This document shows, one piece after another, positions 15,214-56,797 of a DNA stretch of 64,000 nt. The notes under the pieces are model-generated. The model saw nothing but the letters and a program-made list of their open reading frames with translations, had not been told where the DNA came from and searched no databases. The DNA is from Rhodocytophaga aerolata (GTDB lineage Bacteria > Bacteroidota > Bacteroidia > Cytophagales > 172606-1): assembly GCF_030503435.1 (NCBI RefSeq), contig NZ_JAUKPO010000007.1, positions 1 through 64,000 of the forward strand. The letters are read 5' to 3'. Position 1 is the first letter of the stretch. Every line of letters begins with the position of its first letter. A program made the position numbers and the translations under genes.

Positions 15214-15250
15214 TGTTGTTTACGGACGCCCATTGTATCAGAACCGGACA
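15214..15250. promoter_or_regulatory. twin-dyad operator upstream of P1 (most degenerate copy)
   Basis: The first half is TGTTGT-TTA-CGGACG (15214-15228). The second is TGTATC-AGAAC-CGGACA (15234-15250). It shares CCGGACA and the TGT...(C)GGAC(A/G) spacing with the copies before P5, P9 and P15. It lies 106 bp before the P1 ATG and just upstream of a candidate promoter. Confidence 0.5.
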
Positions 15251-15266
15251 TTTATAAATCCGATAA

Positions 15267-15298
15267 ATTGATTTAAATGTCTGAAAAACAGATATTTG
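15267..15298 (+). promoter_or_regulatory. candidate promoter of the first permease module
   Basis: ATTG (15267-15270), a 20-bp spacer, then GATATTTG (15291-15298; one mismatch to TAnnTTTG). The twin dyad ends 16 bp upstream of the -33 element, a position more typical of activation than of simple blocking. Confidence 0.35.
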
Positions 15299-15355
15299 TA
15301 AACTTTGCATTATTTTTTCTAGTCATTAATCTGCACCCATCAAACTGAAATAGCC

Positions 15356-17740
15356 ATGCTGAAAAACTATTTGACCATTGCTTTCCGCAACTTGTGGAAA
15401 AATAAAGTATATTCTTCTCTCAACATTGGTGGCTTAGCCGTAGGCATGGCGGTGGCTATACTGATTGGACTTTGGATGTATGATGAGTTTTCCTACAACC
15501 GTTATCACCAGAATTATGACCGCCTTGTGCGCGTGATGCAGCATAATGTATATAATGGAAAAAAAGAATCTCAGGTATCCAACCCGGCTGTAATGGCTGA
15601 AGAAATCCGCCAGAATTATGGCAGCGATTTTACCTATGTTTTGCAGTCATCATGGAATTCTTCACACATCCTAGCCTATGGAGATAAACGGCTTTTACAA
15701 TCTGGAAACTACTTTGAACCGGCTGTGACGGAAATGCTGTCGCTGAAAATGTTGAAAGGTACGCGTAACGGGTTAAAAGATCCTTATTCTATTTTACTTT
15801 CCCAGTCAACCGCCTATGCCATCTTTGGAGATGCTGACCCCATGAATAAAGTAATCCGGCTGGACAGTAAATATGATGTAAAAGTAACTGGGGTGTATGA
15901 GGATATACCGTATAATTCGGAGTTCCGGGAGATGAGTTTCCTCTTGCCCTGGGAATTGTATATCAGCAGCAATGACTGGATTAAGAATATGACCGACCCC
16001 TGGGGCAGTAACTTCTCGCAGACCTTTGCCCAGGTAGCGGATCATGCAGATATAGCGCAGGTATCGGCAAAAATCAAAAACGTAAAACTCAATAATGTCT
16101 CCGAAGAAGATAAAAGATATAAAGCGGAAGTTTTTCTGCATCCAATGAGCCAGTGGCATTTGTATTCTGAATTTAAGAATGGCATAAATGAAGGCGGAAG
16201 AATTCAGTTTGTCAGGCTGTTTGGGGTAATTGGTGTATTTGTATTGCTGCTGGCATGCATCAATTTTATGAACCTGGCCACCGCCCGCAGTGAGAAACGG
16301 GCTAAAGAAGTAGGCATCCGGAAAACCGTTGGCTCGGTGCGGCAGCAACTGATTTTTCAGTTCTTCAGCGAATCTTTAGTAGTGGTTGTCTTAGCATTCG
16401 TCTTAGCGTTGATTCTGGTCGAACTGTCCTTGCCTTTTTTCAATGAGGTGGCTGATAAGCGCATGACGGTATTGTGGACCAATCCACTGTTCTGGCTTTC
16501 CTGCATCAGTTTCATTCTCCTAACCGGGTTAATCGCTGGCAGTTACCCGGCTTTGTATTTGTCTTCTTTTCAACCAGTAAAAGTATTGAAGGGTACCTTC
16601 CGGGCCGGCCGGCTTGCTTCTGTACCCCGCAAAGTATTGGTCGTATTGCAATTTACGGTTTCTGTTACCTTAATTATTGGTACGGTTGTCGTATTCCGAC
16701 AGGTGCAGCATGCCAAAGACCGCCCGATCGGGTATGACCGGGATGGCCTCATACAAGTAGATGTGGTGATACCAGAAATCCACAAGCATTGGGAGGTGGT
16801 GCGCAATGAACTGAAAACCGCTGGTGCCATTGTAGAAATGACAGAAGCTACCAGCCCTACGACAGACGTATGGAACACCAATGGGGGGTTCACCTGGAAA
16901 GGCAAAGACCCGAATCTGGCGCTAGACTTTCCTAATAGTGGCGTAACACATGAGTTTGGTAAAACAGTTGGCTGGCAGTTTGTTGCCGGGCGGGATTTTT
17001 CCAGAGAGTTTGCAACTGATTCTTCGGCCTTTGTTATTAATGAAGCTATGGCAAAATTCATAGGCATGGAAAATCCGGTTGGCGAGCAAATCACCTGGGA
17101 CGACAATTCATACACCATCATTGGCGTAATTAAAGATATGGTGGTGCAATCGCCTTATCATCCGGTGCGGGCAGCACTCTTTCATTTGTCCAAAGACAAT
17201 GGCAATGTAATTCTGCTTAAATTGAATCCTGCCAAAAATGCCCGGGCATCTCTGAATATTATTGAACAGGTTTTTAAACAATACAACCCGGCTGCGCCTT
17301 TCGAATACAAATTTGTGGATGAGCAGTATGCCCAAAAATTTGGTGATGAAGAAAGAATTGGAACCTTGTCAGGGGTATTTGCCGGATTTGCCATATTTAT
17401 TAGTTGCCTGGGTCTGTTCGGCCTGGCTTCCTTTACAGCGGAGCAGCGGACCAAAGAAATTGGCGTGCGCAAAGTCCTGGGTGCTTCCGTAACAGATTTG
17501 TGGATGCTGCTTTCCAAAGATTTTGTCCGGCTGGTATTTATTTCCTTGCTGATTGCAGCACCAGTAGCTTATTACCTGATGTACACCTGGCTGCAGCGCT
17601 ACGAATACCGCTTGCAGATTTCCTGGTGGATTTTCATAGGAGCGGCAATAGGCGCCTTGCTCATTACTCTGCTTACGGTAAGTTATCAATCCATTAAAGC
17701 AGCGCTGGCTAACCCGGTGAAAAGTCTACGGAGTGAGTAA
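15356..17740 (+). CDS. FtsX/MacB-like permease P1
   Basis: 794 residues, first gene of the array and head of module 1, preceded by the twin dyad at 15214-15250. Inner-membrane permease with 8 predicted TM and two periplasmic domains. Coupling loops are KEVGIRKTVGS (317-327) and KEIGVRKVLGAS (700-711). The second periplasmic domain has GRDFSREF (545-552), but where most relatives read KDFHxxSL it has KDMVVQSP (593-600), a variant shared only with P5. P1 and P5 also share a 32-nt identical stretch (17495-17526 and 28779-28810), so they are the closest pair seen. The C-terminus is NPVKSLRSE. P2 follows after 68 bp. Known relatives export lipoproteins, peptides or macrolides with a separate or fused ATPase; the substrate here is unknown. 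Confidence 0.9.
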   Translation: MLKNYLTIAFRNLWKNKVYSSLNIGGLAVGMAVAILIGLWMYDEFSYNRYHQNYDRLVRVMQHNVYNGKKESQVSNPAVMAEEIRQNYGSDFTYVLQSSWNSSHILAYGDKRLLQSGNYFEPAVTEMLSLKMLKGTRNGLKDPYSILLSQSTAYAIFGDADPMNKVIRLDSKYDVKVTGVYEDIPYNSEFREMSFLLPWELYISSNDWIKNMTDPWGSNFSQTFAQVADHADIAQVSAKIKNVKLNNVSEEDKRYKAEVFLHPMSQWHLYSEFKNGINEGGRIQFVRLFGVIGVFVLLLACINFMNLATARSEKRAKEVGIRKTVGSVRQQLIFQFFSESLVVVVLAFVLALILVELSLPFFNEVADKRMTVLWTNPLFWLSCISFILLTGLIAGSYPALYLSSFQPVKVLKGTFRAGRLASVPRKVLVVLQFTVSVTLIIGTVVVFRQVQHAKDRPIGYDRDGLIQVDVVIPEIHKHWEVVRNELKTAGAIVEMTEATSPTTDVWNTNGGFTWKGKDPNLALDFPNSGVTHEFGKTVGWQFVAGRDFSREFATDSSAFVINEAMAKFIGMENPVGEQITWDDNSYTIIGVIKDMVVQSPYHPVRAALFHLSKDNGNVILLKLNPAKNARASLNIIEQVFKQYNPAAPFEYKFVDEQYAQKFGDEERIGTLSGVFAGFAIFISCLGLFGLASFTAEQRTKEIGVRKVLGASVTDLWMLLSKDFVRLVFISLLIAAPVAYYLMYTWLQRYEYRLQISWWIFIGAAIGALLITLLTVSYQSIKAALANPVKSLRSE

Positions 17741-17780
17741 TCGCTAATGACAATAAAAAATATCGGCTAATGCCTACCTA

Positions 17781-17800
17781 ATCATTAGTCATTAACCATC
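17781..17800 (+). repeat. conserved 20-nt linker block, P1-P2 copy
   Basis: ATCATTAGTCATTAACCATC, identical to 20252-20271 in the P2-P3 linker and in the same place just before the next start codon. Upstream in the same linker TAATGAC pairs with GTCATTA of the block. Confidence 0.6.
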
Positions 17801-17808
17801 ATAAAACC

Positions 17809-20193: not shown

Positions 20194-20258
20194 TGATGAA
20201 TGATTATTGACCAATGAACATATACCATAAGTAACACTTGGCTAATCATTTATCATTA
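20191..20258 (+). repeat. stop-codon-anchored inverted repeat, P2-P3 linker
   Basis: TAATGATGAATGATT (20191-20205, beginning at the P2 stop TAA) pairs with AATCATTTATCATTA (20244-20258): 14 Watson-Crick pairs and one G-U. The right arm overlaps the 20-nt block 20252-20271 shared with the P1-P2 linker and ends 21 nt before the P3 ATG. Confidence 0.65.
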
Positions 20259-20279
20259 GTCATTAACCATCTTAATCCT

Positions 20280-22688: not shown

Positions 22689-22693
22689 GTAAA

Positions 22694-22762
22694 GGCAGAG
22701 CGCAGAGGGAAAGTTTATATATTTGAATATATCTTTTAGTGTACTGCCCTTTGCGCTCTGCC
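22694..22762 (+). repeat. GC-rich inverted repeat, P3-P4 linker
   Basis: GGCAGAGCGCAGAGGG (22694-22709) pairs with CCCTTTGCGCTCTGCC (22747-22762): 15 Watson-Crick pairs and one G-U, 37-nt loop. It lies 5 nt after the P3 stop and 42 nt before the P4 ATG. Related GCAGAG..CTCTGC arms occur after P7, P8 and P12. No T-run, so not a classical terminator. Confidence 0.65.
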
Positions 22763-22804
22763 AATATTTCTTGTTACTCATTACTCATTAACTACTCTAC
22801 CCGC

Positions 22805-25204: not shown

Positions 25205-25428
25205 GTCTATAAGGTAATTTCATGCTTCAGAAAGAAAAAACTTTCTTATGGGTGTGCGGAAAGTGTGCGTAATTAAACACATACCTGATCAGTTACCTGC
25301 CAAAACGGCTCTTTTTAGCTTATATACGCCTTTTTAAGATTGGCAAAGGCTTTGTATTTCCAGTAAGTAAAGCAGGCGTAATACCTGCGCCATGCCATTC
25401 AGTTTGTTCCTCACCTAAACAATTGTAT

Positions 25429-26334: not shown

Positions 26335-26642
26335 GCAGTAAATGCAGGCATGGTGTAAAGGGCTAAAAGATATATTCAGAAAATTCATTCTCTGCTCCTT
26401 CACCAGGCATTATACCTTAATCTACTGTTCACCTGCGTGCAGCCAGTGTTCATTTCCGGACACCTTCATTGGAGAGATATAATTAATGTATATTGTAATG
26501 TGCTGATTATTAGATATTTATTGTAAGGGCAAATTTATTGTGAGCATATTCTGCGCAGGTGCAACTTAATAGCTTCAAAGAGTCAAAAGAGATTCTTGCA
26601 AATCATATAATCCTTTAACGCCAGGTTCAGAATCATACGCCT
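26335..26642 (+). other. 308-bp intergenic region before P5
   Basis: No ORF or RNA gene recognised. It contains the twin-dyad element at 26426-26462, followed by an AT-rich 180-bp leader up to the P5 ATG. The leader has no full-consensus promoter; TATATTGT near 26489 is the closest. Confidence 0.5.
26426..26462. promoter_or_regulatory. twin-dyad operator upstream of P5
   Basis: TGTTCA-CCTG-CGTGCA (26426-26441), a 5-bp spacer, then TGTTCA-TTTC-CGGACA (26447-26462). The dyad starts are 21 bp apart. The stretch TGTTC(A/G)TTTCCGGACAC is 16 of 17 identical to the copy before P9. Confidence 0.65.
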
Positions 26643-29024
26643 ATGCTACGCAACTACTTAACCATTGCCTTCCGGAACTTGTTGAAAAACAAAGTATATT
26701 CCTCCATTAATATTGTGGGTTTATCTATTGGGATGGCCGTAGCTATGCTTATTGGCCTTTGGATCTGGGATGAACTTTCGTTCAACAAGTATCACCAGCA
26801 TTACAACCGGCTGACGCAGGTATGGATGACTCAGACCTGGAATGGGGAGGTAAACCCGCAAAAGGCTATGCCTTTTCCACTGGCAAATGAACTCCGCACT
26901 AAATTTAAAGACGATTTTCCTTATGTGGCGATGAGTTCGTGGTGGGGAGACTATATACTGGCCTATGGAGATAAAAAAATTACCAGAACGGGTACAGCAG
27001 CAGAGCCTGATTTACCAGTAATGTTAAGCCTGAAAATGTTGCAAGGCACCCGTAACGGACTTACCGACCCCTCTTCTATACTTATTTCCCAGTCACTGGC
27101 TACCACCCTTTTTGGCGATGAAGATGCGATGAATAAGGTGATAAAAGTAGACAACAAATTAAATGTGAAAGTGACCGGGGTGTATGAGGATTTGCCGCAT
27201 AACTCAGATTTTCATGAGTTGTTGTTTATGATTCCCTGGCAACTGCATGTATCCACGCATGAATGGATAAAAAATTCACAAGATGCCTGGGATAGTAATT
27301 CGTACCAGATTTTTGCACAACTAAGCCCACAGGCAGATGCTACCCAACTTTCAGCCAAAATCCGCAACGTCATTAAGGACCACCTGAAAGAAGATAAATT
27401 TGCTACACAACAGGTTTTTCTGCATCCGATGAATTTGTGGCATCTGCATTCAGAATTTAAGAATGGTGTAGTTTCCGGCGGAAGAATCGAGTTTGTATGG
27501 CTGTTTGGCATTATCGGCGTATTTGTGTTGCTGCTGGCCTGCATCAACTTTATGAATCTTTCTACCGCACGTTCTGAAAAGCGGGCAAAAGAAGTAGGTA
27601 TCCGCAAAACATTAGGTTCTATCCGCCAGCAACTCATTTATCAATTCCTGAGTGAATCTATCTTAATGACTCTATTGGCCTTTGCTCTGGCATTGGCCTG
27701 GGTAATACTTGCCTTGCCTGCGTTCAATGAAGTAGCTGATAAAGCCATCGTGCTTCCCTGGAGCAATTCCGTTTTCTGGGTGCTATGCCTGAGTTTTACA
27801 GTACTCACCGGACTTATTGCAGGCAGTTATCCGGCTTTTTATTTATCCTCTTTCAATCCGGTAAAAGTCTTGAAAGGCACCTTCCGGGCCGGACGTTATG
27901 CGGCTATTCCCCGCAAAGCATTGGTAGTACTCCAGTTTACAGTTTCTATCAGTCTTATCATCGGAACAATGGTTGTATTCCGGCAGGTACAACATGCCAA
28001 AAACCGCCCGGTAGGCTACTCCAGAGAGGGATTGTTGTATGTAAATATGAATACCAAAGAAATCTACGACAATTATGAGGCATTAAAAAATGACCTGCTG
28101 GCCAGTGGGGCGGTAGAATCCGTTTGCGTGTCGTCTAGCCCGGTTACCAATGTGTTTTCTACCAATGGTGGGTTTGAATGGCCCGGCAAAGATCCTAATC
28201 AGAGTGTGATGCTGGGTACTATAGCCGGCGATTATGGCTATGGCAAAACAGTAGGTTTTCAGCTCATTTCCGGAAGAGATTTCTCCAAGGATTTTTCTAC
28301 CGATTCCTCAGCCATTATCCTTAATGAAAAGGCTGCAAAGTTTATGGGACTTGAGAATCCGGTAGGCCAAACCATTAAATGGCATAAAGACGCCTATCAT
28401 GTTATTGGGGTAGTAAAAGATATGGTAATGGATTCGCCGTATTCACCGGTGCTGCCTACCGTATTTCTGTTAAAACCCGACTGGGCAGGCCTGGTAAATG
28501 TGAGAATTACCCCTGCTTTGAGTACCCGCGAAGCCCTGAGCCGCATTACGCCTATCTTTCAGCAACATGATCCTGGCAGCCCATTCGACTATAAGTTTGC
28601 CGATCAGGAATATGACTTAAAATTTAAGAGTGAAGAACGCATTGGCCAGCTGGCAAGTTTTTTTGCTGCACTAGCCATATTTATCAGTTGCCTGGGTTTA
28701 TTCGGTCTGGCTTCTTTCACTGCTGAGCAGCGGGTAAAAGAAATTGGGGTGCGCAAAGTTTTGGGTGCTTCTATCCTGGATTTGTGGATGCTGCTTTCCA
28801 AAGATTTTGTAAGCCTGGTGCTTGTTTCCCTGCTGATTGCTGTGCCTGTTGCCTGGTACCTGATGTACATCTGGCTGCAGCGGTATGAGTACCGGTCGGG
28901 CATATCATGGTGGATTATGGTAAGTTCGGCGGCAGGGGCTCTGCTGATTACACTGCTTACGGTTAGCTATCAATCTATCAAAGCTGCGCTGGCTAATCCG
29001 GTAAAAAGCTTGCGCAATGAATAA
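26643..29024 (+). CDS. FtsX/MacB-like permease P5
   Basis: 793 residues, head of module 2 and sister of P1. Both share ILAYGDK, MLSLKML(K/Q)GTRNGL and DLPHNSDF-type segments in the first periplasmic domain, NTKEIYDNYEAL-region spacing in the second, and the altered KDMVMDSP in place of KDFHxxSL. Coupling loops are KEVGIRKTLGS and KEIGVRKVLGAS. GRDFSKDFSTDSS is conserved. The first half ends SSFNPVKVLKG and the protein ends NPVKSLRNE. The twin dyad lies 180 bp upstream, farther than at the other three copies. The stop codon lies in the left arm of the inverted-repeat linker at 29018-29092. Confidence 0.9.
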   Translation: MLRNYLTIAFRNLLKNKVYSSINIVGLSIGMAVAMLIGLWIWDELSFNKYHQHYNRLTQVWMTQTWNGEVNPQKAMPFPLANELRTKFKDDFPYVAMSSWWGDYILAYGDKKITRTGTAAEPDLPVMLSLKMLQGTRNGLTDPSSILISQSLATTLFGDEDAMNKVIKVDNKLNVKVTGVYEDLPHNSDFHELLFMIPWQLHVSTHEWIKNSQDAWDSNSYQIFAQLSPQADATQLSAKIRNVIKDHLKEDKFATQQVFLHPMNLWHLHSEFKNGVVSGGRIEFVWLFGIIGVFVLLLACINFMNLSTARSEKRAKEVGIRKTLGSIRQQLIYQFLSESILMTLLAFALALAWVILALPAFNEVADKAIVLPWSNSVFWVLCLSFTVLTGLIAGSYPAFYLSSFNPVKVLKGTFRAGRYAAIPRKALVVLQFTVSISLIIGTMVVFRQVQHAKNRPVGYSREGLLYVNMNTKEIYDNYEALKNDLLASGAVESVCVSSSPVTNVFSTNGGFEWPGKDPNQSVMLGTIAGDYGYGKTVGFQLISGRDFSKDFSTDSSAIILNEKAAKFMGLENPVGQTIKWHKDAYHVIGVVKDMVMDSPYSPVLPTVFLLKPDWAGLVNVRITPALSTREALSRITPIFQQHDPGSPFDYKFADQEYDLKFKSEERIGQLASFFAALAIFISCLGLFGLASFTAEQRVKEIGVRKVLGASILDLWMLLSKDFVSLVLVSLLIAVPVAWYLMYIWLQRYEYRSGISWWIMVSSAAGALLITLLTVSYQSIKAALANPVKSLRNE

Positions 29025-29092
29025 TGACGATTAATGAATGAATACCTATTATCGAGTAATGCCTGAGTAATCAGTAGTCATTATTCACTAAT
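29018..29092 (+). repeat. stop-codon-anchored linker element, P5-P6
   Basis: TGAATAATGAC (29018-29028, containing the P5 stop) pairs perfectly with GTCATTATTCA (29077-29087). Between them 29054-29073 is a 20-nt block identical to 44126-44145 in the P9-P10 linker; 29078-29092 is also identical there (44150-44164). The element ends 10 nt before the P6 ATG. Confidence 0.7.
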
Positions 29093-29102
29093 CACTATAC
29101 CT

Positions 29103-31505
29103 ATGTTAAAGAACTATGTAACGATTGCGCTGCGGAATATAAGCCGGCACAAAGGCTATACGGCCCTGAATGTTGCCGGGCTGGCGGTGGGTATTGCCTC
29201 CTGTATTCTTATCTTTTTCTTCATCCGCAATGAGCTGAGTTATGACACCTACCACCAGGATGCTGACCGCATTTACCGGGTAGCCATCGATATTCAAAGC
29301 AAGGCGGATAACCGCATATTTGCCAAAACATCTGCTCCGCTTGTTGAGGCCCTCAAAAAAGATTTTCCGCAGGTAGAAGAAGCCGTGCAGTTGTGGCAAT
29401 GGAACAGCCAGCTGGTAAAATACGGCGAAGAAAAGAGTTTTTATGAAGATAACTTGTTTCTTACCACGCCTGATATCTTTACTGTATTTACCATTCCGTT
29501 GCTGAAAGGTGATTCCAGAACAGCCCTAAGCCGGCCTTTAACAGTGGTGCTTGCCGAAGAAACTGCCCGGAAATACTTTGGCCAGGAAGAACCGGTAGGG
29601 AAAATGCTGAAAATAAATGATAAGCAGTATGAGGTAACAGGCGTAATGGCTAGGCTGCCCTATAACAGCCACCTGAACTTGAACATGCTTACCTCCATAA
29701 CGATGCTGCAAAACGAAGCCTGGTACCAGGATGAAGCCGCCAACTGGCATTCTACTATGTTTTTTACCTATATCAAAGTGAAAGAGAACATAAATCTGCC
29801 TCTATTTGAAAAGCAAGTGGCTACAGCTGCCAATGCATATGTAGGAGACCTGCTAAAAGAATGGGTAGTGAATTACGTGTTTTTTCTGCAGCCGGTAACA
29901 GACATCCATCTGCATTCTAACCTGAGTGGCGAAGCCGAAGTGCCAGGCAGTGCTATGAATGTGTATATTCTGTCGGTAGTTGCGGTACTTATTTTATTAA
30001 TCGCCTCCCTTAATTATATTAACCTGACTACTGCCCAGGCGGCTAACCGGGCGAAGGAAGTAGGCATACGGAAAGTAGTAGGGGCTTCCAGAACTCCACT
30101 GGTATTCCAGTTTATAGCTGAATCATTATTGCTTACCCTGGCTGCTTTGCTGATGGCTCTAGGAATGGTGTATACCGTGCATCCCTGGTTTGAAGCCCTT
30201 TCCGGACAAACAATAGATTTGGGTCAGGTAATTACACCTCAGGCAGTGGTTACGCTGCTTGGTGCTACCGTGTTGCTGGGCATTAGCTCGGCCGCCTATC
30301 CGGCCCTGTTTTTATCATCGTTCCGCCCGGTATCAGTATTGAAGGGAAAGCTCAGCATGGGAGCCAAAGGAGCTACTTTGCGAAAAGTTTTAGTGGTATG
30401 CCAGTTTACCATTTCCCTGATGCTGATGGCAGGCACCATTATGGTATACCGGCAGCTCAATTTTATGAAAAATGAGAACCTGGGCTTTTCCAAAGAGCAA
30501 GTAGTAGTACTTCCGGTGAGGGGAGGGGCTTCTATTAAGGAGAATTATGAGCAAATAAAAAATGAGTTTAAAAGCCATTCTTCTATTGCAGAAGCCACTA
30601 CGTCGGCCAGTGTACCAGGGAGAGGCGTAGATAATTTTGCTATTGCCCTGATGGATGAAGCCGATGACAAGGGCCAGTCAATGTACTACCTGTTTGTAGA
30701 TTTTGATTTTCTGAAGCTGTACAACATTGGCCTGGTGGCCGGACGGGCATTTGATAAAACACGGGCCACCGATGCCGAAAGTACTTTCATGATTAATGAA
30801 AAAGCAGTGAAGGCTTTTGGCTGGGCTTCGCCGGAAGAAGCAATCGGGAAGAAATTAAGCACTGGCTTTGGCCGGGATGGGGAAATTATTGGTGTTTATA
30901 AAGATTTTCATTACCGCTCGCTGCAAGCCCCCATTGAGCCGCTGGTAATGGCCGTGAATATAGCTAGGTTCAACCACATCAGCCTGAAAGTGCAGACAAA
31001 AGAAATCGCTTCTACCATGGCTTTTGTAGAGAAAAAGTGGAAAGAGCTTTTCCCGAACCATCCCTTTGAGTATTTCTTTCTGGATGAGGAGTTTAATAAG
31101 CAATATGCTGCCGATGAGAAAATTGGCCGTACGTTTCTGGTATTTACAGGTATAGCTATTGGAGTAGCTTGCTTGGGCTTATTCGGCCTGGCTACCTTCA
31201 CTGCTGCCCAACGCACCAAAGAAATAGGCGTACGCAAAGTATTAGGAGCCACGGTACCCAACATTGTGCTGCTGCTCTCCAGAGAGTTTACCAGACTGGT
31301 CATTATTGCTTTTCTGATTGCTACCCCGCTTTCGTATGTGCTGATAGATAAATGGCTCGAAAACTTTGCTACGCGCATTGGCATTGGCTGGGATACTTTT
31401 GTAATAGCCGGAGCCGGGGTGTTGCTGATTGCCTTGCTTACGGTAAGTTATCAATCCATTAAAGCGGCGCTGGCCAATCCTGTGCAAAGTTTACGGAATG
31501 AATAA
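29103..31505 (+). CDS. FtsX/MacB-like permease P6
   Basis: 800 residues, second of module 2. TM1 (about 18-42) contains Cys34 in GIASCILIFFF. First periplasmic domain: ARKYFGQEEPVGKMLKIND and VTGVMARLPYNSHLNL. Coupling loops are KEVGIRKVVGAS and KEIGVRKVLGAT. Second periplasmic domain: GRAFDKTRATD (the Ser of GRDFS is lost) and KDFHYRSLQAPIEP. The first half ends SSFRPVSVLKG and the protein ends NPVQSLRNE, Gln replacing Lys. It lies between the conserved linker to P5 and a 67-bp gap to P7. No sign of degeneration. Confidence 0.9.
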   Translation: MLKNYVTIALRNISRHKGYTALNVAGLAVGIASCILIFFFIRNELSYDTYHQDADRIYRVAIDIQSKADNRIFAKTSAPLVEALKKDFPQVEEAVQLWQWNSQLVKYGEEKSFYEDNLFLTTPDIFTVFTIPLLKGDSRTALSRPLTVVLAEETARKYFGQEEPVGKMLKINDKQYEVTGVMARLPYNSHLNLNMLTSITMLQNEAWYQDEAANWHSTMFFTYIKVKENINLPLFEKQVATAANAYVGDLLKEWVVNYVFFLQPVTDIHLHSNLSGEAEVPGSAMNVYILSVVAVLILLIASLNYINLTTAQAANRAKEVGIRKVVGASRTPLVFQFIAESLLLTLAALLMALGMVYTVHPWFEALSGQTIDLGQVITPQAVVTLLGATVLLGISSAAYPALFLSSFRPVSVLKGKLSMGAKGATLRKVLVVCQFTISLMLMAGTIMVYRQLNFMKNENLGFSKEQVVVLPVRGGASIKENYEQIKNEFKSHSSIAEATTSASVPGRGVDNFAIALMDEADDKGQSMYYLFVDFDFLKLYNIGLVAGRAFDKTRATDAESTFMINEKAVKAFGWASPEEAIGKKLSTGFGRDGEIIGVYKDFHYRSLQAPIEPLVMAVNIARFNHISLKVQTKEIASTMAFVEKKWKELFPNHPFEYFFLDEEFNKQYAADEKIGRTFLVFTGIAIGVACLGLFGLATFTAAQRTKEIGVRKVLGATVPNIVLLLSREFTRLVIIAFLIATPLSYVLIDKWLENFATRIGIGWDTFVIAGAGVLLIALLTVSYQSIKAALANPVQSLRNE

Positions 31506-31572
31506 TAACTAATCCATACTGGCAAATGCATAAAAAACAGGCATGTGTCCGTATTCACAATTCACAAAAACG

Positions 31573-34020
31573 ATGTTCAAAAACTACCTGAAAATTGCCT
31601 GGCGGAATCTGCTCCGGAAGAAGACGTATACTATCATTAATGTGTTTGGCTTATCGCTGGGCATTGCCTTTTGTCTGCTGGTGTACCTCTACATTGAGCA
31701 GGAACGGTCATTCGATACCTTCCATACCAATGCTGAATCTATCTACCGGATAGAGAGCAGCAGTTTTCATACGCCCGCCCAGGCTAAACAACCAGAGGAA
31801 TCGTTGTTTTCTGTTTTTCCGCAGCAGGATCAGGAAAGGAACCAGATTGTAATGCCAGTGGTGCTGGCCCCTGAATTAAAAGCTTCCTTTCCGGAAGTAA
31901 AACAAACCTTGCGCCTAAAGTCTGGCTGGCGCGAAACTATCCGGTATAATAACCAGAGCTTCCGGGAGGAAAAAGCCCTGTATGTAGATACTAACTTTTT
32001 TGAGGTATTTACTTTTCCGCTGGTGCATGGAAACCGAGCTACTGTGCTGGCTAGCCCCAATAGTGTAGTTATTTCTGAATCCATAGCCCATAAATATTTT
32101 GGCACAGACAATCCTGTAGGTAAAACCCTGGAGTTTATCTGGGAAAAACCAGTATTGTTCACTATAAGCGGGGTAGCTAAAACAGTACCGGCTAATTCCA
32201 GTATCCAGTTCGAATTTTTGCTTCCCATACAGGCTTATCCTGGCTATCAAAATTACCTCGAGGCAGGATTGAGTACATCTTCCGTGCTTACTTTTGTTGA
32301 ACTAAGAGAAGGGGCATCCAGACAAGCTTTTGCAAAAAAACTGGATGATTTTGGCAGAACGTATTTTAAGCCATTAATCGAAGGCAACGAAACCTTTCAG
32401 GCCAATGATTTTCACCTTAGCTTGCGTCCGCTTACAGAATGTCATTACAATGCAGCTTCTCCCTGGGGCCATTATACCTCTCTAAAAAACATATACCAGC
32501 TTGCCTGCCTTACTATCCTTATTCTACTGATTGCCTGCCTGAATTATTTCTTACTTACCTTAACTAATACAGCGGCCCGGATGCAGGAAGTGGGTTTGCG
32601 GAAGGTAATAGGCGCACCAAGATGGCAGCTGGTCAGCCAGTTCTGGGTGGAAACACAGGTAATGGTGTGCATGGCAGTAGTAGCCGGTTGGTTGCTGGTA
32701 GTTGCTTTATTGCCTTATTTCAACCAGATTACAAATGCCCGCATAGAGATTACGGCCGCACATGCTTCTGGTATTCTGCTGGCTATGCTTAGTACTGCAC
32801 TGGCCGTTGGAGTACTGGCAGGCGTCTATCCGGCCTTGTTCATTTCAGGTGTGAAACCGCTCAGCATTATTAAGCGCCATCAGACGTTCCGCATCAGTCC
32901 CGGGCTTTCCAGGGTTTTAGTAGTCTTGCAATATACGGTTTGTATGAGCCTGCTGATTGGTTCTTTGGGTATTGCCAGCCAGATGCACTATATCAACACC
33001 AAAGACTTAGGCTTTGATAAGGAACAAACTTTACTTGTAGAAAATCCGGATTGGGGCAATTCTCAAAAAACACTTGCTATAGCCCAGCGGTTGCAGGCAT
33101 TCGCTACTACTGAACCTGCTTTAGCTGGCTTTTCGGCTGCCGGGCATACCTTTAGTTCCGGCTTCGATACCTATATGCATACCATTGACGGCAAACAGGT
33201 AGGCGTTAGTGTAATGCGGGTAGATTACAACTATGCCAATATGATGAAGCTAGAGATCGTACAAGGGCGAGATTTTTCACCTGCCTTCTCTACAGACACT
33301 TCCACCACTGAAAGAGCCGCCGTAGTAAATGAAACCTTGTTCAATATGCTGGGCAGTGAAGCTACCGTAGGAGAATATAATTCAACGCTTGGCTACCGGA
33401 TTATAGGCGTAGTAAAAGATTACCACCACACTAGCCTGCTTTCACCAATAGGACCTGTTGTACACCGCTTAGAACCACATCGGGCTGCTTTTTTCTGGTT
33501 TAAGCTAAAACCCGGAGATATGGCAGGAACCATCCATAAAATACAAGACCAATGGAACGTACTTACCGCAAATTCTCCCTTTACCTACAGATTCTTAGAT
33601 GAAGACGTGGCAACCCTGTATGAGGCACAACAGCAATGGCTGAAAACCATACATGGGGCTACCCTATTTGCTATTGTGGTAGCCTGCCTGGGCCTGTTCG
33701 GCTTATCGGGTATTCATGCCTTGAACCGTACCAAGGAGATAGGTATCCGCAAAGTGTTGGGGGCTTCTGCCGGGCAAATATTGATACTGCTCAATAAAGA
33801 TACTGTTCGGCTGGCTCTTATTTCTTTTGCTATTGCTATTCCGGTAGGGTATTATTTTATGCACCAGTGGTTACAGGATTTTGCCTACCGGATAGATCTG
33901 GGCTGGGAGTTATTTGCCACAGCCGGAGTTATGGGTGCCTGTACGGCCTTGCTGGCAGTAAGTTATCATTCTATTAAAGCTGCCTTAACTAACCCGGCTG
34001 ATTCACTGCGGGACGAATGA
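31573..34020 (+). CDS. FtsX/MacB-like permease P7 (divergent coupling loop 1)
   Basis: 815 residues from the ATG at 31573, one of the longest members. The extra length is in the first periplasmic domain, where a Gln/Glu-rich insert (about residues 60-90, with TPAQAKQPEES) follows TM1. Coupling loop 1 departs from the norm: RMQEVGLRKVIGAP instead of RAKEVGxRKVxGA. Loop 2 is standard (KEIGIRKVLGAS). The first half ends SGVKPLSIIKRH, without the LKG motif. The second periplasmic domain has GRDFSPAFSTD and KDYHHTSLLSPIGP. The C-terminus is NPADSLRDE, the most changed tail of the array together with P10. The next gene is a 90-codon unknown protein rather than a permease. Confidence 0.9.
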   Translation: MFKNYLKIAWRNLLRKKTYTIINVFGLSLGIAFCLLVYLYIEQERSFDTFHTNAESIYRIESSSFHTPAQAKQPEESLFSVFPQQDQERNQIVMPVVLAPELKASFPEVKQTLRLKSGWRETIRYNNQSFREEKALYVDTNFFEVFTFPLVHGNRATVLASPNSVVISESIAHKYFGTDNPVGKTLEFIWEKPVLFTISGVAKTVPANSSIQFEFLLPIQAYPGYQNYLEAGLSTSSVLTFVELREGASRQAFAKKLDDFGRTYFKPLIEGNETFQANDFHLSLRPLTECHYNAASPWGHYTSLKNIYQLACLTILILLIACLNYFLLTLTNTAARMQEVGLRKVIGAPRWQLVSQFWVETQVMVCMAVVAGWLLVVALLPYFNQITNARIEITAAHASGILLAMLSTALAVGVLAGVYPALFISGVKPLSIIKRHQTFRISPGLSRVLVVLQYTVCMSLLIGSLGIASQMHYINTKDLGFDKEQTLLVENPDWGNSQKTLAIAQRLQAFATTEPALAGFSAAGHTFSSGFDTYMHTIDGKQVGVSVMRVDYNYANMMKLEIVQGRDFSPAFSTDTSTTERAAVVNETLFNMLGSEATVGEYNSTLGYRIIGVVKDYHHTSLLSPIGPVVHRLEPHRAAFFWFKLKPGDMAGTIHKIQDQWNVLTANSPFTYRFLDEDVATLYEAQQQWLKTIHGATLFAIVVACLGLFGLSGIHALNRTKEIGIRKVLGASAGQILILLNKDTVRLALISFAIAIPVGYYFMHQWLQDFAYRIDLGWELFATAGVMGACTALLAVSYHSIKAALTNPADSLRDE

Positions 34021-34121
34021 ACGGGCACAGATAGGCATGGAGCGAAGGGTGAAAGCAAAACATTCCACGTACCATGTTTTATGCGCTCTGCCAAAAGATA
34101 CACCTTTAAATAATTATACGT

Positions 34122-37995: not shown

Positions 37996-38293
37996 AAAAA
38001 AATGGTTAAGGTGGTAAAAAAAAGACCTCTTACAAAAACAGGGAAAGGTTGTTACCGAAGGATGTAAAAACTGTTTTTGCAATGGTTTTCTGAAGAGAAA
38101 TATAGAAAAATTTTTATGCCAATAGCAAGCAAGCAACGGACTTTATTTTTCTGTAATTAGCTTACTTTCTATAGGTTAACGTATAGGCAGCAAATGGTAC
38201 GTTGCTTTGATCGTATGCGCTACATTCTTCAAGACACAGGTAGTGCGTGTGTGATAGCTGCCAGCTTATATAACTACTTAGCAAGCCGGTGAA

Positions 38294-41257
38294 TTAGGTA
38301 CTAATAGGTTGTTGATCCCCTAAGTTGGGGATTTCTATGGTAAAGGTGGTTCCTTTGCCAGGCTCAGAGGCCAGGGCTATGGTTCCTTTTAGTTTCTTTA
38401 AATTTTCTTTTACAATATACAAGCCCAGTCCGGAGCCTACGTTTTTATCGGTAGCCCGGTAAAACATCTCAAACACTTTAGCCTGGTGCTCTTTGGCAAT
38501 GCCTTGTCCGTTATCTGCAATAATGATTCGTATACGCTGCTTGCCTTCAGGCCTGGCTGTTATAGCAATAAACTGCTCTTTGGAAGGATCATGGTAGCGG
38601 ATGGCATTGGCAATAATGTTATGCAACACCACCGTTAAGCGGTTTTCGTCGGTATAAAATTTAGAAGGCTGTTTAATATCTGTGCGGAAGTCAATGGATT
38701 TGGCTTCTTCCATAAACTTTAAATCATCTACTGTGCTGCTGATCATCGCGGCAAAGTCTGCTTCGCTGACAACAAGTTCAGTGCGGGAGTTTTTAGAGTA
38801 GTAAATGATATCCTGAATGAAGGTATCCAGCTTACGTACACTCTTTTCCATTAAAACCAGGTACTGTCTTTTTTGCTCTTCATCTTTCTCCAGGTGCGAT
38901 AAGTTTATAAGACCCATGATCGAAACCAGCGGAGCGCGTAAGTCGTGCGATGCCCTGTATACAAACTGGTCTAACTCATGATTAATCTTTTGCAGCTGGA
39001 GGTTATAATTTTGCAGATTTTCTTCTGCCTTTTTCCGCTCGGTAATATCTCTGAAATAAACCGTAAGCCCTTCTTCAGAAGGATAGACGTTTACTTCTGT
39101 CCAGACATTGGCCGGTGTGTAGCATTCCTCAAAATGCACTGGTACTTGTTCATCCAAAGCTCTGTTGTATTCTTCATAATATTTTAAATTTCGTGTAGCC
39201 GGAAAAACTTCCCAGAAGGTTTTACCTGTTATTTTCTCCCGGTTAATATTCGTTATTTTCTCAGCGGTTTTATTCCAGTACGTAACCGTAAAATGTTTGT
39301 CTAAGGTAAAAAAACCGTCGCCAATGCTGTTCAAAATATTATTGAGCCGTTCTGCGGTTTGTTCTACGAGTTTCTGGGCTTTTTTCGTAGGGGTTATATC
39401 TTTCAGGATACAGTAAACTCCGGTTATTTCTTTGTTGATAATAATAGGAATATTTATTAAATGTGCCATCAGGAGGTCGCCTGTGGGCATAATAAAATTA
39501 ATTTCCAGGTCTTGCGGATGCCCTTCACAGGCTTTCTTAAAATAATGCACTGCCTGATCCCGGTCCTGTGGGGCTACCAGCGGAACAAACGATTTATTGA
39601 GTAATTCTTCTATAGGTGCGCCAGCTAACGTAGCCATTGCCGGGTTGAGGCTTATAAAATTGCCTGTTAAATCCATGGCGCACACCGCATCGGGGTGGTA
39701 TTCGAACAACGATTTGTAGCGTTGCTCGTTTTCCTGTAACTTTTGCTCTATCTGCTTACGGCTGGTAATGTCTTGCGTTACTACCAGGATATGATCTATA
39801 GACTCATTTTTAATTAGGGGAACGGTGGTGCATAAATAATACCTGGTATCAAAATGCAGTTCCAGGAATAAGGATTCCCCTTCAAATGTAGGGGCTATTT
39901 TCTCTTTGATATATTCACCAACGTGTAATCCAAATATTTCATTTAGTTGCCTGCCCGTAAGCATATCCGAGGTTACGTTATAACGGGTTAGTTCCTGGCC
40001 TTCCATCAGCAATACGTTGAACTCTTTATCGCAGATAGAGATGGTACCATTGGGGTAGTTTTGCGACAAAGACCTGTATAATTGCTCACTTTGCTTTATC
40101 CGTTCTTCGGCAGCTTTTTTTTCACTGATATCCCGGCCAATCGTAAACATACAACTGCTCTCTTCCGACCATGAACCCGTCCACAGCATAGGGATGAGCC
40201 GGCCGTCTTTATGGACAATGCGGTGTTCAAAATCAGTCATAATGCCTTCAGCCATAAACTTCTCTGACATGGCAATGGTTTTCTCCATATCTCCCGGATA
40301 TACTAATTTTCCCAGCGACTGGCCGATCAATTCTTCCGGATTATATCCCCATAGGCGTTGGCAAGCCTGGCTTACCTGGACAAAGTGTACCTCTTTATCA
40401 AACACACAAATGACGTCTAGGGAATGCTCAAAAATCCCTTTGTTAATTTGCAGGGCTTTTTGTAAAGCCTCATTTTTCTCTGAGAGCATTTCCTCCGCCT
40501 GCCTTTTATGGGTAATTTCCCGCTGAATAGACACATAATGAGTAACCGTACTATTTTCGTCTGGTACTGGTACGATGGAAAACTCCACCCAGAAGGGCTG
40601 CCCGGATTTGGTGTAATTAATAAGTTCAACCGTTATAGGGGTATTTGTTTCCAGGGCTTTACGGATTTGGTCGAGTGCTGTACGGCTGGTGGCTGGTCCC
40701 TGTAAAAACCGGGGGCTTTTACCCAGCACTTCTTCCTGCGTATACCCAGTAATCTGCGTAAACGCAGGATTGGTATACACAATCTGAGGTCCAGGTTCAT
40801 CAATAGGGTGGGCTTTCGTAATCATTATGGCATCATGGGCATGTTTTACAAAGGGCTCCATTAGCCGCAGGCATTCTTCCGGATTGTCTTTACCAGAAGT
40901 GCTTTTAAAATAAAGCATAGCTCCCAGGATGGTTCCATCGGCTCCGGTCAGCGGCTTTGCTTTGGCTTGTGCTGGTATACTTTCTCCGCTTACTGTTCGA
41001 AGCCAGACATCTCCCGTCCATGGTTTATTAGCTGAAATATGGCTAAAAATGCTATTGTAAACGTTTGCAGGCAGCAAGCCAGTTAAACCGCCATATGATA
41101 AAATTTGCTCCTGGCTGCTCCCCTTTAACAAGTGCTGACAGGCGGTATTAATAAACGCAAGTTTTCCTTCAAGGGATAGGATACACACAGCATCTCCTAT
41201 ATCCTCTACTAGCGAGATAAAGGGTTGTAGTTTTTGGTTCTTTTCTTCTGCCCGCAT
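38294..41257 (-). CDS. cytosolic six-PAS hybrid-free sensor histidine kinase
   Basis: 987 residues with no membrane segment or receiver domain. Six PAS units lie at about 12-119, 134-251, 273-379, 391-500, 512-622 and 635-740, then HisKA with the phospho-acceptor His771 (RASHDLRAPL) and HATPase_c with N-box HNIIANAIRYHD (879-890), DNGQGI (915-920), F-box FEMFYR and GSGLGLYIVK (941-950). PAS2 is LOV-like, but GRNCRFLQ is replaced by GKSPRFLQ (179-186), so the photoactive cysteine is Pro182 and blue-light adduct chemistry is not expected. No response regulator gene is adjacent. The ATG at 41257 was preferred to an in-frame TTG at 41275. It is divergent from P9 across 447 bp. Confidence 0.9.
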   Translation of the reverse strand: MRAEEKNQKLQPFISLVEDIGDAVCILSLEGKLAFINTACQHLLKGSSQEQILSYGGLTGLLPANVYNSIFSHISANKPWTGDVWLRTVSGESIPAQAKAKPLTGADGTILGAMLYFKSTSGKDNPEECLRLMEPFVKHAHDAIMITKAHPIDEPGPQIVYTNPAFTQITGYTQEEVLGKSPRFLQGPATSRTALDQIRKALETNTPITVELINYTKSGQPFWVEFSIVPVPDENSTVTHYVSIQREITHKRQAEEMLSEKNEALQKALQINKGIFEHSLDVICVFDKEVHFVQVSQACQRLWGYNPEELIGQSLGKLVYPGDMEKTIAMSEKFMAEGIMTDFEHRIVHKDGRLIPMLWTGSWSEESSCMFTIGRDISEKKAAEERIKQSEQLYRSLSQNYPNGTISICDKEFNVLLMEGQELTRYNVTSDMLTGRQLNEIFGLHVGEYIKEKIAPTFEGESLFLELHFDTRYYLCTTVPLIKNESIDHILVVTQDITSRKQIEQKLQENEQRYKSLFEYHPDAVCAMDLTGNFISLNPAMATLAGAPIEELLNKSFVPLVAPQDRDQAVHYFKKACEGHPQDLEINFIMPTGDLLMAHLINIPIIINKEITGVYCILKDITPTKKAQKLVEQTAERLNNILNSIGDGFFTLDKHFTVTYWNKTAEKITNINREKITGKTFWEVFPATRNLKYYEEYNRALDEQVPVHFEECYTPANVWTEVNVYPSEEGLTVYFRDITERKKAEENLQNYNLQLQKINHELDQFVYRASHDLRAPLVSIMGLINLSHLEKDEEQKRQYLVLMEKSVRKLDTFIQDIIYYSKNSRTELVVSEADFAAMISSTVDDLKFMEEAKSIDFRTDIKQPSKFYTDENRLTVVLHNIIANAIRYHDPSKEQFIAITARPEGKQRIRIIIADNGQGIAKEHQAKVFEMFYRATDKNVGSGLGLYIVKENLKKLKGTIALASEPGKGTTFTIEIPNLGDQQPIST

Positions 41258-41704
41258 AGGCGTGGAGTAAATCAACTACTTACGGTGTATCAAAAAATAT
41301 TAACATACTGCAGCCTAGTAGTATACGGAAACTGGCATATAAAAGTAGCTGCTTATCCACTACAGATTAAAAAAAATAATTGAAAAATTCAATTTTATAT
41401 GCCTAATAATTAAGTATATCTGTACCGACCCTATCAGTGGGAAACTTGCCGGACGTATAGTAAAGAAATGTAGGCTACTTACCCGCTCCATAGTTACCCA
41501 TTGCATACAGATTACAGTAGGTGTAATACGCACACAAAAAATGTTGTAAAATGTATGTCCGATAACGTACGTAAAAGTGTTCGTTTCCGGACACTTTTTT
41601 AAGTAGATATTACTAAGGCAGCATGTAATATATTGAATACTAATACTTTACTCTAAAGGCAGATTTCTTGAAGTAGCCTCTCTTACCTTCACCTGTAGAC
41701 CGTT
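41258..41704. other. 447-bp divergent intergenic region, kinase / P9
   Basis: No ORF or RNA gene recognised. It holds an AT-rich dyad AATTGAA-AAA-TTCAATT (41378-41394) closer to the kinase, and the twin-dyad element (41556-41593) closer to P9. Promoters for both genes must lie here but none matches the consensus fully. Confidence 0.5.
41556..41593. promoter_or_regulatory. twin-dyad operator upstream of P9
   Basis: TGTCCG-ATAA-CGTACG (41556-41571), a 6-bp spacer, then TGTTCG-TTTC-CGGACA (41578-41593). The dyad starts are 22 bp apart, 111 bp before the P9 ATG. It is the best-conserved copy; flanking G and C extend the second dyad to GTGTTCG...CGGACAC. Confidence 0.7.
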
Positions 41705-44092: not shown

Positions 44093-44164
44093 TGATGAAT
44101 GACCATGGACGACTGAATATAGATTGAGTAATGCCTGAGTAATCAACCCTCATTATTCACTAAT
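44086..44164 (+). repeat. stop-codon-anchored linker element, P9-P10
   Basis: TGAATAATGA (44086-44095, containing the P9 stop) pairs with TCATTATTCA (44150-44159). The 20-nt block 44126-44145 and the 15-nt block 44150-44164 are identical to the P5-P6 linker. It ends 13 nt before the P10 ATG. Confidence 0.7.
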
Positions 44165-44177
44165 TCTTATAAACAAC

Positions 44178-46553: not shown

Positions 46554-46633
46554 TGACGGTTGATTCATGAGCCGTTCCTGGAGAACTAGCAAAAAGGAAT
46601 TATTTGTCACTCATCACCAATTAGTATAGGTCT

Positions 46634-49021: not shown

Positions 49022-49091
49022 TGACGATTGACGAATAAGTGTATATCGGGTAATAGCTGAGTAAGTAGTAATTACTAATCCGTACAAAAAT

Positions 49092-51503: not shown

Positions 51504-51526
51504 GCAGACGTAATAATATAACAGGA

Positions 51527-51575
51527 GGGCAGAGAGCATGAAAGGAAAATACTTGTTTCTCTCTGCGCCATGCCC
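51527..51575 (+). repeat. GC-rich inverted arms, P12-P13 linker
   Basis: GCAGAGAG (51529-51536) pairs with CTCTCTGC (51559-51566) with outer GGG/CCC (51527-51529 and 51573-51575) in near register. It resembles the stronger P3-P4 and P8 elements. Confidence 0.35.
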
Positions 51576-51677
51576 TTTGCTATTACACCGCTAATCAAGT
51601 AAATGTGGTAAGGAACAGCTTTTATGAATTATTTAAACAATCGCTCTAGTTCTGCAAAATCTTAACGCTGCACATAT

Positions 51678-54125: not shown

Positions 54126-54347
54126 ATAAATGGCCTGACGCAAAGAGCCTAGAGGTTAGCTGAATCAACGCTGATGTATCATCTTGATCTTGGTTAATAA
54201 GAACAGTGTGATTTCACTTTGGGCAGATATATAATTTTAGAAATACATCTTTAGTTGAAGTACGATAGGAAATACACAAAGCAATCAGTTTTTGTGCTAT
54301 GCCTCTGTCCCATGCCATGGCAATAAATCACCTAAACACCTATACCT

Positions 54348-56723
54348 ATGTTCAGAAACTATTTAACTATTGCGTTTAGAAGCATCCTACACCAGAAAGC
54401 ATACAACCTGCTGAACCTTGCCGGATTGGCCATTGGCATTACCTGCGGCCTTATAATGGCTTTGCATGTACAGGAGGAATTGAGTTATGAAAAGGACTTT
54501 CCCGGATATGATAACATTTACCGGGTGCATGTAAAAGAGTGGGCAAAAAGTAGCCCTGTTTTAGCTGAAGAGATTGAAAAGTTTATGCCGGAAATTGAAG
54601 CCATTGGCCGCTTTGCTTATGCAGGGACACCAATAGTAGGTTACCAAAAAAACAACGCTGCTGAGAGCACTGGCTATTATGCCGATGCAGAGGTGCTGAA
54701 AGTTTTTGGCTTGAAGCTACTGCAAGGCAAATCTGACCAGTTGCTGACGGTACCTAATACCATAGTACTTACGCAACGTATGGCCCAGCGGTATTTTGGT
54801 AAGAAAGATCCGGTTGGCGAAGTACTGAACTTTGATAATAGTACTGAGTATACAGTAGTAGGCGTAATGGAAGATTTACCTAAAAATTCCCACCTAAAGT
54901 TTGACTTCCTGGTTTCCATGCCTACTTTTTATAAGCAACTGCCACCAGACTTATTGACTAACCGTGGTTGGATGGTGATGTATACCTATGCAAAGTTTGC
55001 CTCTGCCAGCCAGAAAACGAAAGCGCAGGAAAAGATGCCTGCTTTTATCGGGCATCACTACGCAGACTGGGACAATAAAGAGCAGATGATTGCCGAAGGA
55101 GCCCTGGCATTTCAGCCAGTAACAGATATTCACCTAAAATCGAATCTGGAGCAGGAAATGGGAGCTAATAGCAGTATTGCCTACATCTATATATTAGTGG
55201 CTGTGCAGATACTGGTACTGGTAATTGCCTGCGTCAACTTTATGAATTTGTTTACTACACAAACTATTAAACGCCTGAAGGAAGTAGGTATGCGAAAAAT
55301 ACTAGGAGCCAATAAAAGCCAATTGGTATTGCAATTCCTGACAGAAGCTTTCATTTTGGCTCTCTCATCTGTGGTACTTGCCATTGTGTTGTATCAGTTT
55401 GCGCTTCCAGTATACAATAGCATTACAAGTAAAAATTTAACTTGGGACGTACTTTTTACCGCAGATAATATTTTGCTGCTTATCAGTATCATGCTGTTTG
55501 TGTGGCTGTTTTCAGGGCTTTACCCAGCATTGTTTATTTCAGGCATTGAGCCGGTAAGTTCACTGAAAGCTACCAAAACTCCGCGTTCTTTTCCGGTAGT
55601 TATCCGCAAAAGCCTGGTTGTATTTCAGTTTGCCGTTTCTCTGTTTCTGATTACTGGTACCATCTTTATTTCCCAGCAAATGCATCTCTTGCGGAACAAA
55701 GAAATGGGTTTCGACAAAAACCAGGTGGTGTATATAAAGTTGTATGGAGACTTATATAAAAGCATGGTGGAAAAGCCCCAAACTTTTAAAAGTGAGTTTT
55801 TACGTAACCCTAATGTGCTCACCGTAGCTACAACTTCCAATTACATAGGCGACGATTTGAGTGTAGAGGGTATTACTCCACAAGGCACCAATGGGCAAGA
55901 ATTTCCGTCGGTACGGGTTATGCGGACAGATGGTAATTATTTGAAGACGCTAAGTATTCCGGTGATAGCTGGCCGCGATTTCTCCACAGACTTCAATGAT
56001 TCTGCTTCCGTAATTATTAACGAACAAGCTGTGAAAGATTTGCGGCTGGAAAATCCTATAGGAACAGTTTTACAAGGCCTGGTGGGTAACAGAACAGCGA
56101 AAGTAATTGGAGTAGCAAAAGATTTTCATTTTACCTCCCTGCACAACACCATTGAACCCTTAATTATAGAGTACCGGCCAGAGTTTACTGGTAGCTTGGT
56201 TGTCAAAATGCAGGCTGGTAAAACCAAAGAAACCTTAGCGTACTTGAGAAAGGCAACACAAACCATTGCTCCCGGCAGTCTATTTGTCTACAACTTTCTG
56301 GATGAAAAGCTAAATGAGCTGTATAAAACAGAAGATAGCTTAAGCACTATTTTGCAGATATTTTCGGTACTGGCCATCATTATTGCTTGCCTGGGATTAT
56401 TTGGCTTAGCGGCTCATTCCATAGAAACACGCACGAAAGAAATAGGCATCCGCAAAGTATTAGGGGCAACGGTAACATGTATTGTCGCTTTATTTTCCAA
56501 AGACTTTATTAAACTGATAGGAATAGGATTTATTATTGCCATACCCCTTACCTTGTATGCTATACAACAGTGGCTACAGAACTTTGCTTACCAAATTGAT
56601 ATACAATGGTGGGTATTTGCCCTTTCTGGTTTACTAGTGTTAGTAATTGCTTTGCTCACCATCAGCTTTCAATCCATTAAAGCTGCCTTAGCCAATCCTA
56701 TAAAGTCATTACGAAATGAGTAA
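54348..56723 (+). CDS. FtsX/MacB-like permease P14
   Basis: 791 residues, after a 222-bp gap without a twin dyad or a clear promoter. The first periplasmic domain is short after TM1 (HVKEWAKSSPVLAEEIEKFMPEIEAIG), with IVLTQRMAQRYFGKKDPVGEVL and VVGVMEDLPKNSHLKFD. Coupling loops are KEVGMRKILGAN and KEIGIRKVLGAT. TM6 ends GLAAHSIETRTKE, His-Ser-Ile replacing the common SFTAEQ. Second periplasmic domain: GRDFSTDFNDS and KDFHFTSLHNTIEP. The first half ends SGIEPVSSLKA; the protein ends NPIKSLRNE. It is the last gene before the twin dyad of P15. Confidence 0.9.
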   Translation: MFRNYLTIAFRSILHQKAYNLLNLAGLAIGITCGLIMALHVQEELSYEKDFPGYDNIYRVHVKEWAKSSPVLAEEIEKFMPEIEAIGRFAYAGTPIVGYQKNNAAESTGYYADAEVLKVFGLKLLQGKSDQLLTVPNTIVLTQRMAQRYFGKKDPVGEVLNFDNSTEYTVVGVMEDLPKNSHLKFDFLVSMPTFYKQLPPDLLTNRGWMVMYTYAKFASASQKTKAQEKMPAFIGHHYADWDNKEQMIAEGALAFQPVTDIHLKSNLEQEMGANSSIAYIYILVAVQILVLVIACVNFMNLFTTQTIKRLKEVGMRKILGANKSQLVLQFLTEAFILALSSVVLAIVLYQFALPVYNSITSKNLTWDVLFTADNILLLISIMLFVWLFSGLYPALFISGIEPVSSLKATKTPRSFPVVIRKSLVVFQFAVSLFLITGTIFISQQMHLLRNKEMGFDKNQVVYIKLYGDLYKSMVEKPQTFKSEFLRNPNVLTVATTSNYIGDDLSVEGITPQGTNGQEFPSVRVMRTDGNYLKTLSIPVIAGRDFSTDFNDSASVIINEQAVKDLRLENPIGTVLQGLVGNRTAKVIGVAKDFHFTSLHNTIEPLIIEYRPEFTGSLVVKMQAGKTKETLAYLRKATQTIAPGSLFVYNFLDEKLNELYKTEDSLSTILQIFSVLAIIIACLGLFGLAAHSIETRTKEIGIRKVLGATVTCIVALFSKDFIKLIGIGFIIAIPLTLYAIQQWLQNFAYQIDIQWWVFALSGLLVLVIALLTISFQSIKAALANPIKSLRNE

Positions 56724-56760
56724 ACTAACTTTGTTCATTCTTTAATATGGGTTAAACAAA

Positions 56761-56797
56761 TGTCCGGACTGGTACAAATACTGTACGTTTCCGGACA
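56761..56797. promoter_or_regulatory. twin-dyad operator upstream of P15
   Basis: TGTCCG-GACT-GGTACA (56761-56776), a 5-bp spacer, then TGTACG-TTTC-CGGACA (56782-56797). Starts are 21 bp apart; the element ends 115 bp before the P15 ATG. A possible -7 box TATACTTG lies at 56814-56821. Confidence 0.7.

Follow-up and report, generated by a model that had tools for sequence, protein, structure and literature searches.

A twin palindrome upstream of FtsX/MacB permease arrays in Rhodocytophaga aerolata is a probable sigma-54 enhancer of an NtrC-family regulator

The intergenic DNA at the head of FtsX/MacB permease arrays in Rhodocytophaga aerolata carries a twin palindrome at which, very probably, a two-component activator docks and acts through sigma-54. 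On our preferred reading, held with good confidence and built from sequence comparison, the twin dyad is a sigma-54 enhancer of an NtrC-family bEBP that would switch on the permease arrays, with the bEBP encoded on contig C77 as the best candidate. The sites lie within a window of 64,000 nucleotides, the whole stretch of DNA that was analysed, in a genome of 9.07 Mb on 202 contigs. A first-pass annotation of this DNA had described a stand-alone operator and missed the promoter downstream; the dyads appear instead to form the upstream activating sequence of a sigma-54 promoter.

Three permease genes of the window, P5, P9 and P15, are each preceded by two dyads on the forward strand. The weak distal dyad of P5, TGTTCACCTGCGTGCA (26426-26441, matrix score 4.0 at -217), is followed by the proximal dyad TGTTCATTTCCGGACA (26447-26462); P9 has TGTCCGATAACGTACG (41556-41571, score 15.9) and TGTTCGTTTCCGGACA (41578-41593), and P15 has TGTCCGGACTGGTACA (56761-56776, score 9.7) and TGTACGTTTCCGGACA (56782-56797). 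With matrices built from other sites of the genome, the window sites being left out, the proximal dyads scored 15.9, 21.1 and 23.8 bits for P5, P9 and P15, respectively, against a 99% level of 8.2 in shuffled sequence, and those of P9 and P15 match the genome-wide pattern exactly. Dyad starts are 21, 22 and 21 bp apart, in agreement with the spacing of about 21 bp first proposed. The second-dyad core TTTCCGGACA is exact in these three copies, as claimed, with one extra copy at 30199, inside a permease gene, in a search of the window. The second dyads of P5 and P9 differ at one position, which bears out their reported near-identity, and CCGGACA is indeed common to all four annotated sites, with further copies at nine places on both strands of the window. 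Allowing up to two mismatches, the window contains 19 matches to the dyad pattern where 6.5 would be expected, and no shuffle gave as many.

The fourth annotated site, P1, departs from the form ascribed to it. Here a degenerate first dyad precedes the 17-mer TGTATCAGAACCGGACA (15234-15250 within the forward-strand candidate at 15212-15250), a TGT-N11-ACA element, and P1 fits the pattern in its right half alone; the best dyad matrix score is -4.5, and a matrix scan found no sigma-54 box downstream (best score 1.6). Since it has neither a 16-mer match nor a sigma-54 box, P1 was rejected as a full member and is to be dropped or treated as doubtful. It may be a site of a 17-bp form, or a hybrid of two codes. 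The 17-bp dyad form TGTATCA-N2-ACCGNACA is found at window positions 15234-15250, at about 9415 of locus L079 and in loci L091, L092 and L106, and it precedes the MacA genes of relatives.

Most dyad matches across the genome are followed, before the start codon, by a box of the type TGGCA-N6-TTG, a shape that suggests a sigma-54 -24/-12 promoter. In the window, these forward-strand boxes are GGGCAAATTTATTGTG for P5 (26527-26542, score 8.9), AGGCAGATTTCTTGAA for P9 (41657-41672, score 13.9) and AGGCTGACTTATTGCT, with GG-N10-GC, for P15 (56861-56876, score 10.6), at 80, 79 and 79 bp from the proximal dyad start; the corresponding shuffled levels are 8.4 (95%) and 11.8 (99%). The arrangement of a dyad upstream of a -24/-12 type promoter is shared by P5, P9, P15 and about 17 other units of the genome, not by P1. 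Eighteen units have a dyad-to-box distance of 79-83 bp, and two have one of 71 bp, about one turn less; two more units have the dyad alone, at 91 or 102 bp. The genome has a single copy of rpoN (C169:297894-298370, E 4.9e-57).

Exact matches to TGTNCGNTTCCGGACA number 12 in the genome, all of them outside long ORFs and upstream of genes. Their targets are five PadR-permease operons, four permeases directly, two genes of the C138 permease cluster, encoding a DUF4097 protein and a pentapeptide protein, and one TonB-receptor-like gene; permease operons, PadR-permease operons and the C138 cluster together account for 11 of the 12. The genome-wide scan that the first-pass annotation had proposed places dyad matches upstream of genes and before other FtsX-type permeases, not at random in coding DNA. 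By matrix scan, the dyad and box head FtsX/MacB permease units and are absent from the gaps inside arrays. On the forward strand of the window, P5 heads a unit of three FtsX/MacB_PCD permeases (26643-34020; genes 26643-29024, 29103-31505 and 31543-34020), P9 heads an array of six, P9-P14 (41705-56723), with no element between the genes, and P15 and P16 (56913-61849) stand at the head of an array that runs past the window (61927, 64442). A hand count from MacB_PCD matches gives about 62 long permeases in the genome. Of the 15 PadR-permease operons, 11 exceed the threshold for both dyad and box, one is a borderline case and the other three lack both elements.

Several other genes lie near these elements. 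DUF4097 and pentapeptide-repeat proteins are encoded by the first genes behind the element (L082:5878-6801, L082:16472-17248, L145, L150), and N-terminal look-alikes of the pentapeptide-repeat protein follow it in two other genomes. The dyad and box also precede genes for a TonB-receptor-like protein (L005:1-1206, reverse strand) and a large secreted protein (L209:2759-5197), and outer-membrane proteins may thus belong to the regulon. The gene of a 993-residue multi-PAS histidine kinase (window 38294-41275, reverse strand) is divergent from P9 across a gap of 429 bp; no response regulator was seen beside it. An Imm7-type immunity protein is encoded at window positions 186-743 (reverse strand).

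Conservation of the motif in related genomes was followed with the exact composite TGTNCG-N4-CGGACA, 50-80 bp and GGCA-N6-TTG, and with the reversed pattern as control. A search with CCGGACA plus the box alone had proved too loose, giving chance matches in coding DNA and in controls, and the full dyad pattern was therefore used instead. Order-wide, 109 of 390 genomes (27 of 129 genera) contain the exact composite, before related permeases, and class-wide a slightly looser composite is present in 24 of 395; the reversed pattern gave no match in any genome listed in either scan. Among the 181 instances listed, composite lengths form clusters about one helical turn apart, at 81-84, 92-96 and 101-104 bp; in the last of these, many of the dyads are the distal members of twin sites. 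Periodicity is strongest at 10.7 bp, with a vector length R of 0.68 against a null maximum of 0.32, and it persists at 10.5 bp (R 0.55) when one instance per family and length is kept; because related genomes are not independent, we claim no P value for this phasing. A second dyad lies 20-22 bp away at 51 of 69 distinct sites, compared with 3.8 at control offsets, which supports the earlier suggestion that the element serves two cooperating dimers and is common to permease operons.

As to the protein that may bind the element, a search for the sigma-54 activator domain gave 11 full-length matches in the genome. Four of these are response regulators, on contigs C77, C111, C136 and C169, that adjoin a small membrane kinase and FtsX or MacA-type genes. 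The C77 bEBP has PF00158 (E 1.1e-64), PF02954 and PF00072 domains. The gap between its gene and a divergent MacA-type gene contains the TGTNCG site TGTCCGAAACCGAACA and, after it, TGTATCATAACCGTACA; no such site accompanies the other three FtsX-linked bEBPs, and the divergent gaps of the C111 and C169 genes have TGTAACGGAACTGTTACA and TGTTTCAATCTGATACA in its place. The sigma-54 box of the C77 MacA operon is poor, with a score of 1.9. The best candidate regulator within this genome is the C77 bEBP (C77:77920-79305), paired with the kinase encoded at C77:76554-77930.

Neighbourhoods in other genomes were read from the stretches around the best matches. In 11 of them (L152, L154-L157, L159, L160, L172, L181, L185 and L186) the composite occupies the region that separates a bEBP gene from a divergent MacA, permease, efflux or other gene, and in L188 it lies directly ahead of the bEBP gene; weak MacA-like matches at 18-23% identity (L165, L170, L173, L177, L178) were excluded from the MacA orthologs. 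The site-linked bEBPs and the four R. aerolata paralogs fall into one supported family group (37 of 43 rows). A bEBP of this kind also adjoins a MacA-type gene in Hymenobacter, Flavivirga and a Chitinophagaceae MAG, where twin dyads of the 17-bp form, such as TGTATCAAAACCGAACA, lie between the two genes. The first-pass annotation had left the regulator open while mentioning PadR; the divergent sites in 11 genomes make an NtrC-family response regulator most likely, and PadR improbable.

The sigma-54 contact loop of this FtsX-linked bEBP family reads GAFTDA or GSFTDA, and GAYTDA in the C77 protein, not GAFTGA. Such variants are family-wide, being found in the C77, C111, C136 and C169 proteins and in those of L090-L110 and L152-L188. 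GAFTDA and GAYTDA have been listed in Desulfovibrio as variants compatible with sigma-54 activation (PMC4641369), and RpoN was not pulled down with the GAFTDA regulator VfmH of Dickeya (PMC10714721). Hydropathy profiles of the partner kinases reveal two membrane helices joined by a few residues, with almost no external loop, in 11 of 11 cases. The C77 adaptor and ATPase find their closest named counterparts in the darobactin export genes DarB, DarC and DarD, with matches under the curated cut-offs; no darobactin genes were seen.

Regulators beside TGTNCG sites belong to more than one branch of the bEBP family, and the assignment to C77 accordingly rests on one adjacent site in its own genome. 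We weighed whether the dyad might be the enhancer of another of the 11 bEBPs, or of several FtsX-linked paralogs jointly, a reading that the several branches adjoining TGTNCG sites in other genomes would favour but that we consider unlikely. The divergent promoters of C111 and C169 have other palindromes (TGTAAC-N6-GTTACA and TGTTTCA-N3-TGATACA, respectively), no palindrome was seen for the C136 paralog, and genes of other kinds, for example kdp-like ones, adjoin the remaining bEBPs.

These other palindromes recur elsewhere in the genome. Permease units lacking TGTNCG carry TGTTTCA-N3-TGATACA and variants of it, as does the DNA beside the C169 bEBP, with weak sigma-54 boxes; the sites are at C151:18131, C158:207503, C159:10571, C169:202454 and C169:216038 (L204, L195, L200, L192) and possibly constitute a second, separate regulon. 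A third palindrome, TGTAACGGAACTGTTACA, with a fair sigma-54 box, lies between the C111 bEBP and a divergent permease at C111:858476 (L077:15300-15480).

PadR proteins bind palindromes of this general kind. The dyad, read as TGT-N10-ACA, could then be the operator of PadR repressors from the PadR-permease operons, repressing themselves and other permeases, and a strong dyad does occur upstream of 11 of the 15 FtsX-linked padR genes. Location and distribution led us to reject PadR as the binder, and we regard this reading as improbable. A repressor site would be expected to overlap the promoter, whereas the dyad is found about 80 bp upstream of the -24 box, and it occurs before P5, P9, P15 and other permease units that have no padR gene. 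Conversely, three FtsX-linked padR operons (C158, C173, C185) are without the dyad, four of five classical padR loci have nothing above chance, the fifth reaching 8.9 bits against a 95% null level of 9.1, and other genomes have the dyad in bEBP-MacA intergenic gaps that adjoin no padR gene. Finally, that the dyads are merely sequence shared through recent duplication of the permease genes, with no regulatory meaning, is hardly credible even though the permeases are paralogs in tandem arrays: apart from the dyads, the intergenic sequences that surround them differ, and in distant families the composite precedes MacA, ATPase, TonB-type and bEBP genes at fixed phasing.

From the sites, boxes, spacing, conservation, gene neighbourhoods and domain content, we infer the following course of binding, phosphorylation and activation for the sigma-54 enhancer. 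The membrane kinase encoded beside the bEBP would phosphorylate it, a protein with receiver, AAA+ and Fis-type HTH domains. Two bEBP dimers would then bind the pair of TGTNCG-N4-CGNACA palindromes, which are separated by about two turns of DNA and thus share a helix face, and a DNA loop of about eight turns would bring the AAA+ ring to RNA polymerase-sigma-54, which would sit at the -24/-12 box about 80 bp below the dyads and be activated there. The predicted targets are the duplicated FtsX/MacB permease arrays without their own ATPase and the PadR-permease operons, joined in several relatives by the MacA-type adaptor, the ATPase and the regulator itself. All 11 kinases have the two-helix, short-loop architecture of the intramembrane-sensing BceS, and the signal could be cell-envelope stress or peptide antibiotics.

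The kind of system, a sigma-54 enhancer regulon, is already known; what would be new are the regulator, the motif, the targets and the scale. As at NtrC-family upstream activating sequences, palindromes lie above a -24/-12 box and the presumed activator is an AAA+ response regulator acting by DNA looping, a scheme established for bEBPs in general (PMC7175178) and presumed here. In Desulfovibrio, EBP sites usually lie within about 100 nt of the promoter (PMC4641369). In contrast to those systems, the motif, the GAFTDA regulator family and the targets here were not among the descriptions found, and dozens of orphan permeases are predicted to be controlled together in one genome; a search of the open literature revealed no account of the enhancer motif, of its regulator or of the phasing. 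A 2025 survey reported FtsX-like COG0577 genes to be enriched for sigma-54 promoters in Bacteroidia, and called this the first evidence (PMC12316311). Its prediction concerns the same target family and sigma factor, but derives from promoter-matrix enrichment alone, leaves upstream activating sequences unmentioned and gives no enhancer or regulator for these genes.

Two further systems invite comparison. In the Bce-type modules of Firmicutes (BceAB-BceRS), a MacB-superfamily permease is likewise linked to a two-helix short-loop kinase, with self-induction, and the intramembrane-sensing BceS depends on its permease for activation (PMC10314905, PMC5985334); here, however, the output would be an NtrC-type sigma-54 activator rather than an OmpR-type response regulator, and MacA-type adaptors and arrays of orphan permeases are involved. 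ADOP (TIGR03434), with PadR (TIGR03433), shares the duplicated permease without a fused ATPase, the PadR neighbours and permease prefix domain 2. The permeases score 354.5, 269.8, 321.4 and 334.3 bits against the curated TIGR03434 cut-off of 622.3, and are thus not ADOP members by that test.

We speculate, tentatively, that the short-loop kinases read the cycle of an FtsX permease in a Bce-like, self-sensing sigma-54 defence network, in which paralogous bEBPs with their own palindrome codes (TGTNCG, TGTAAC, TGTWTCA) would partition about 60 orphan permeases of one genome among separate regulons, all served by an adaptor and ATPase made elsewhere. Bacteroidota have many duplicated FtsX/MacB permeases without an ATPase. 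For these permeases a regulator, a DNA code and a promoter type can now be proposed, and the regulon can be read from sequence in many genomes. With some 180 natural promoters behind it, the phasing amounts to a comparative test of face-of-helix looping, which is usually shown on a few engineered promoters, and the link to short-loop kinases suggests a route for sensing peptide or envelope stress outside Firmicutes.
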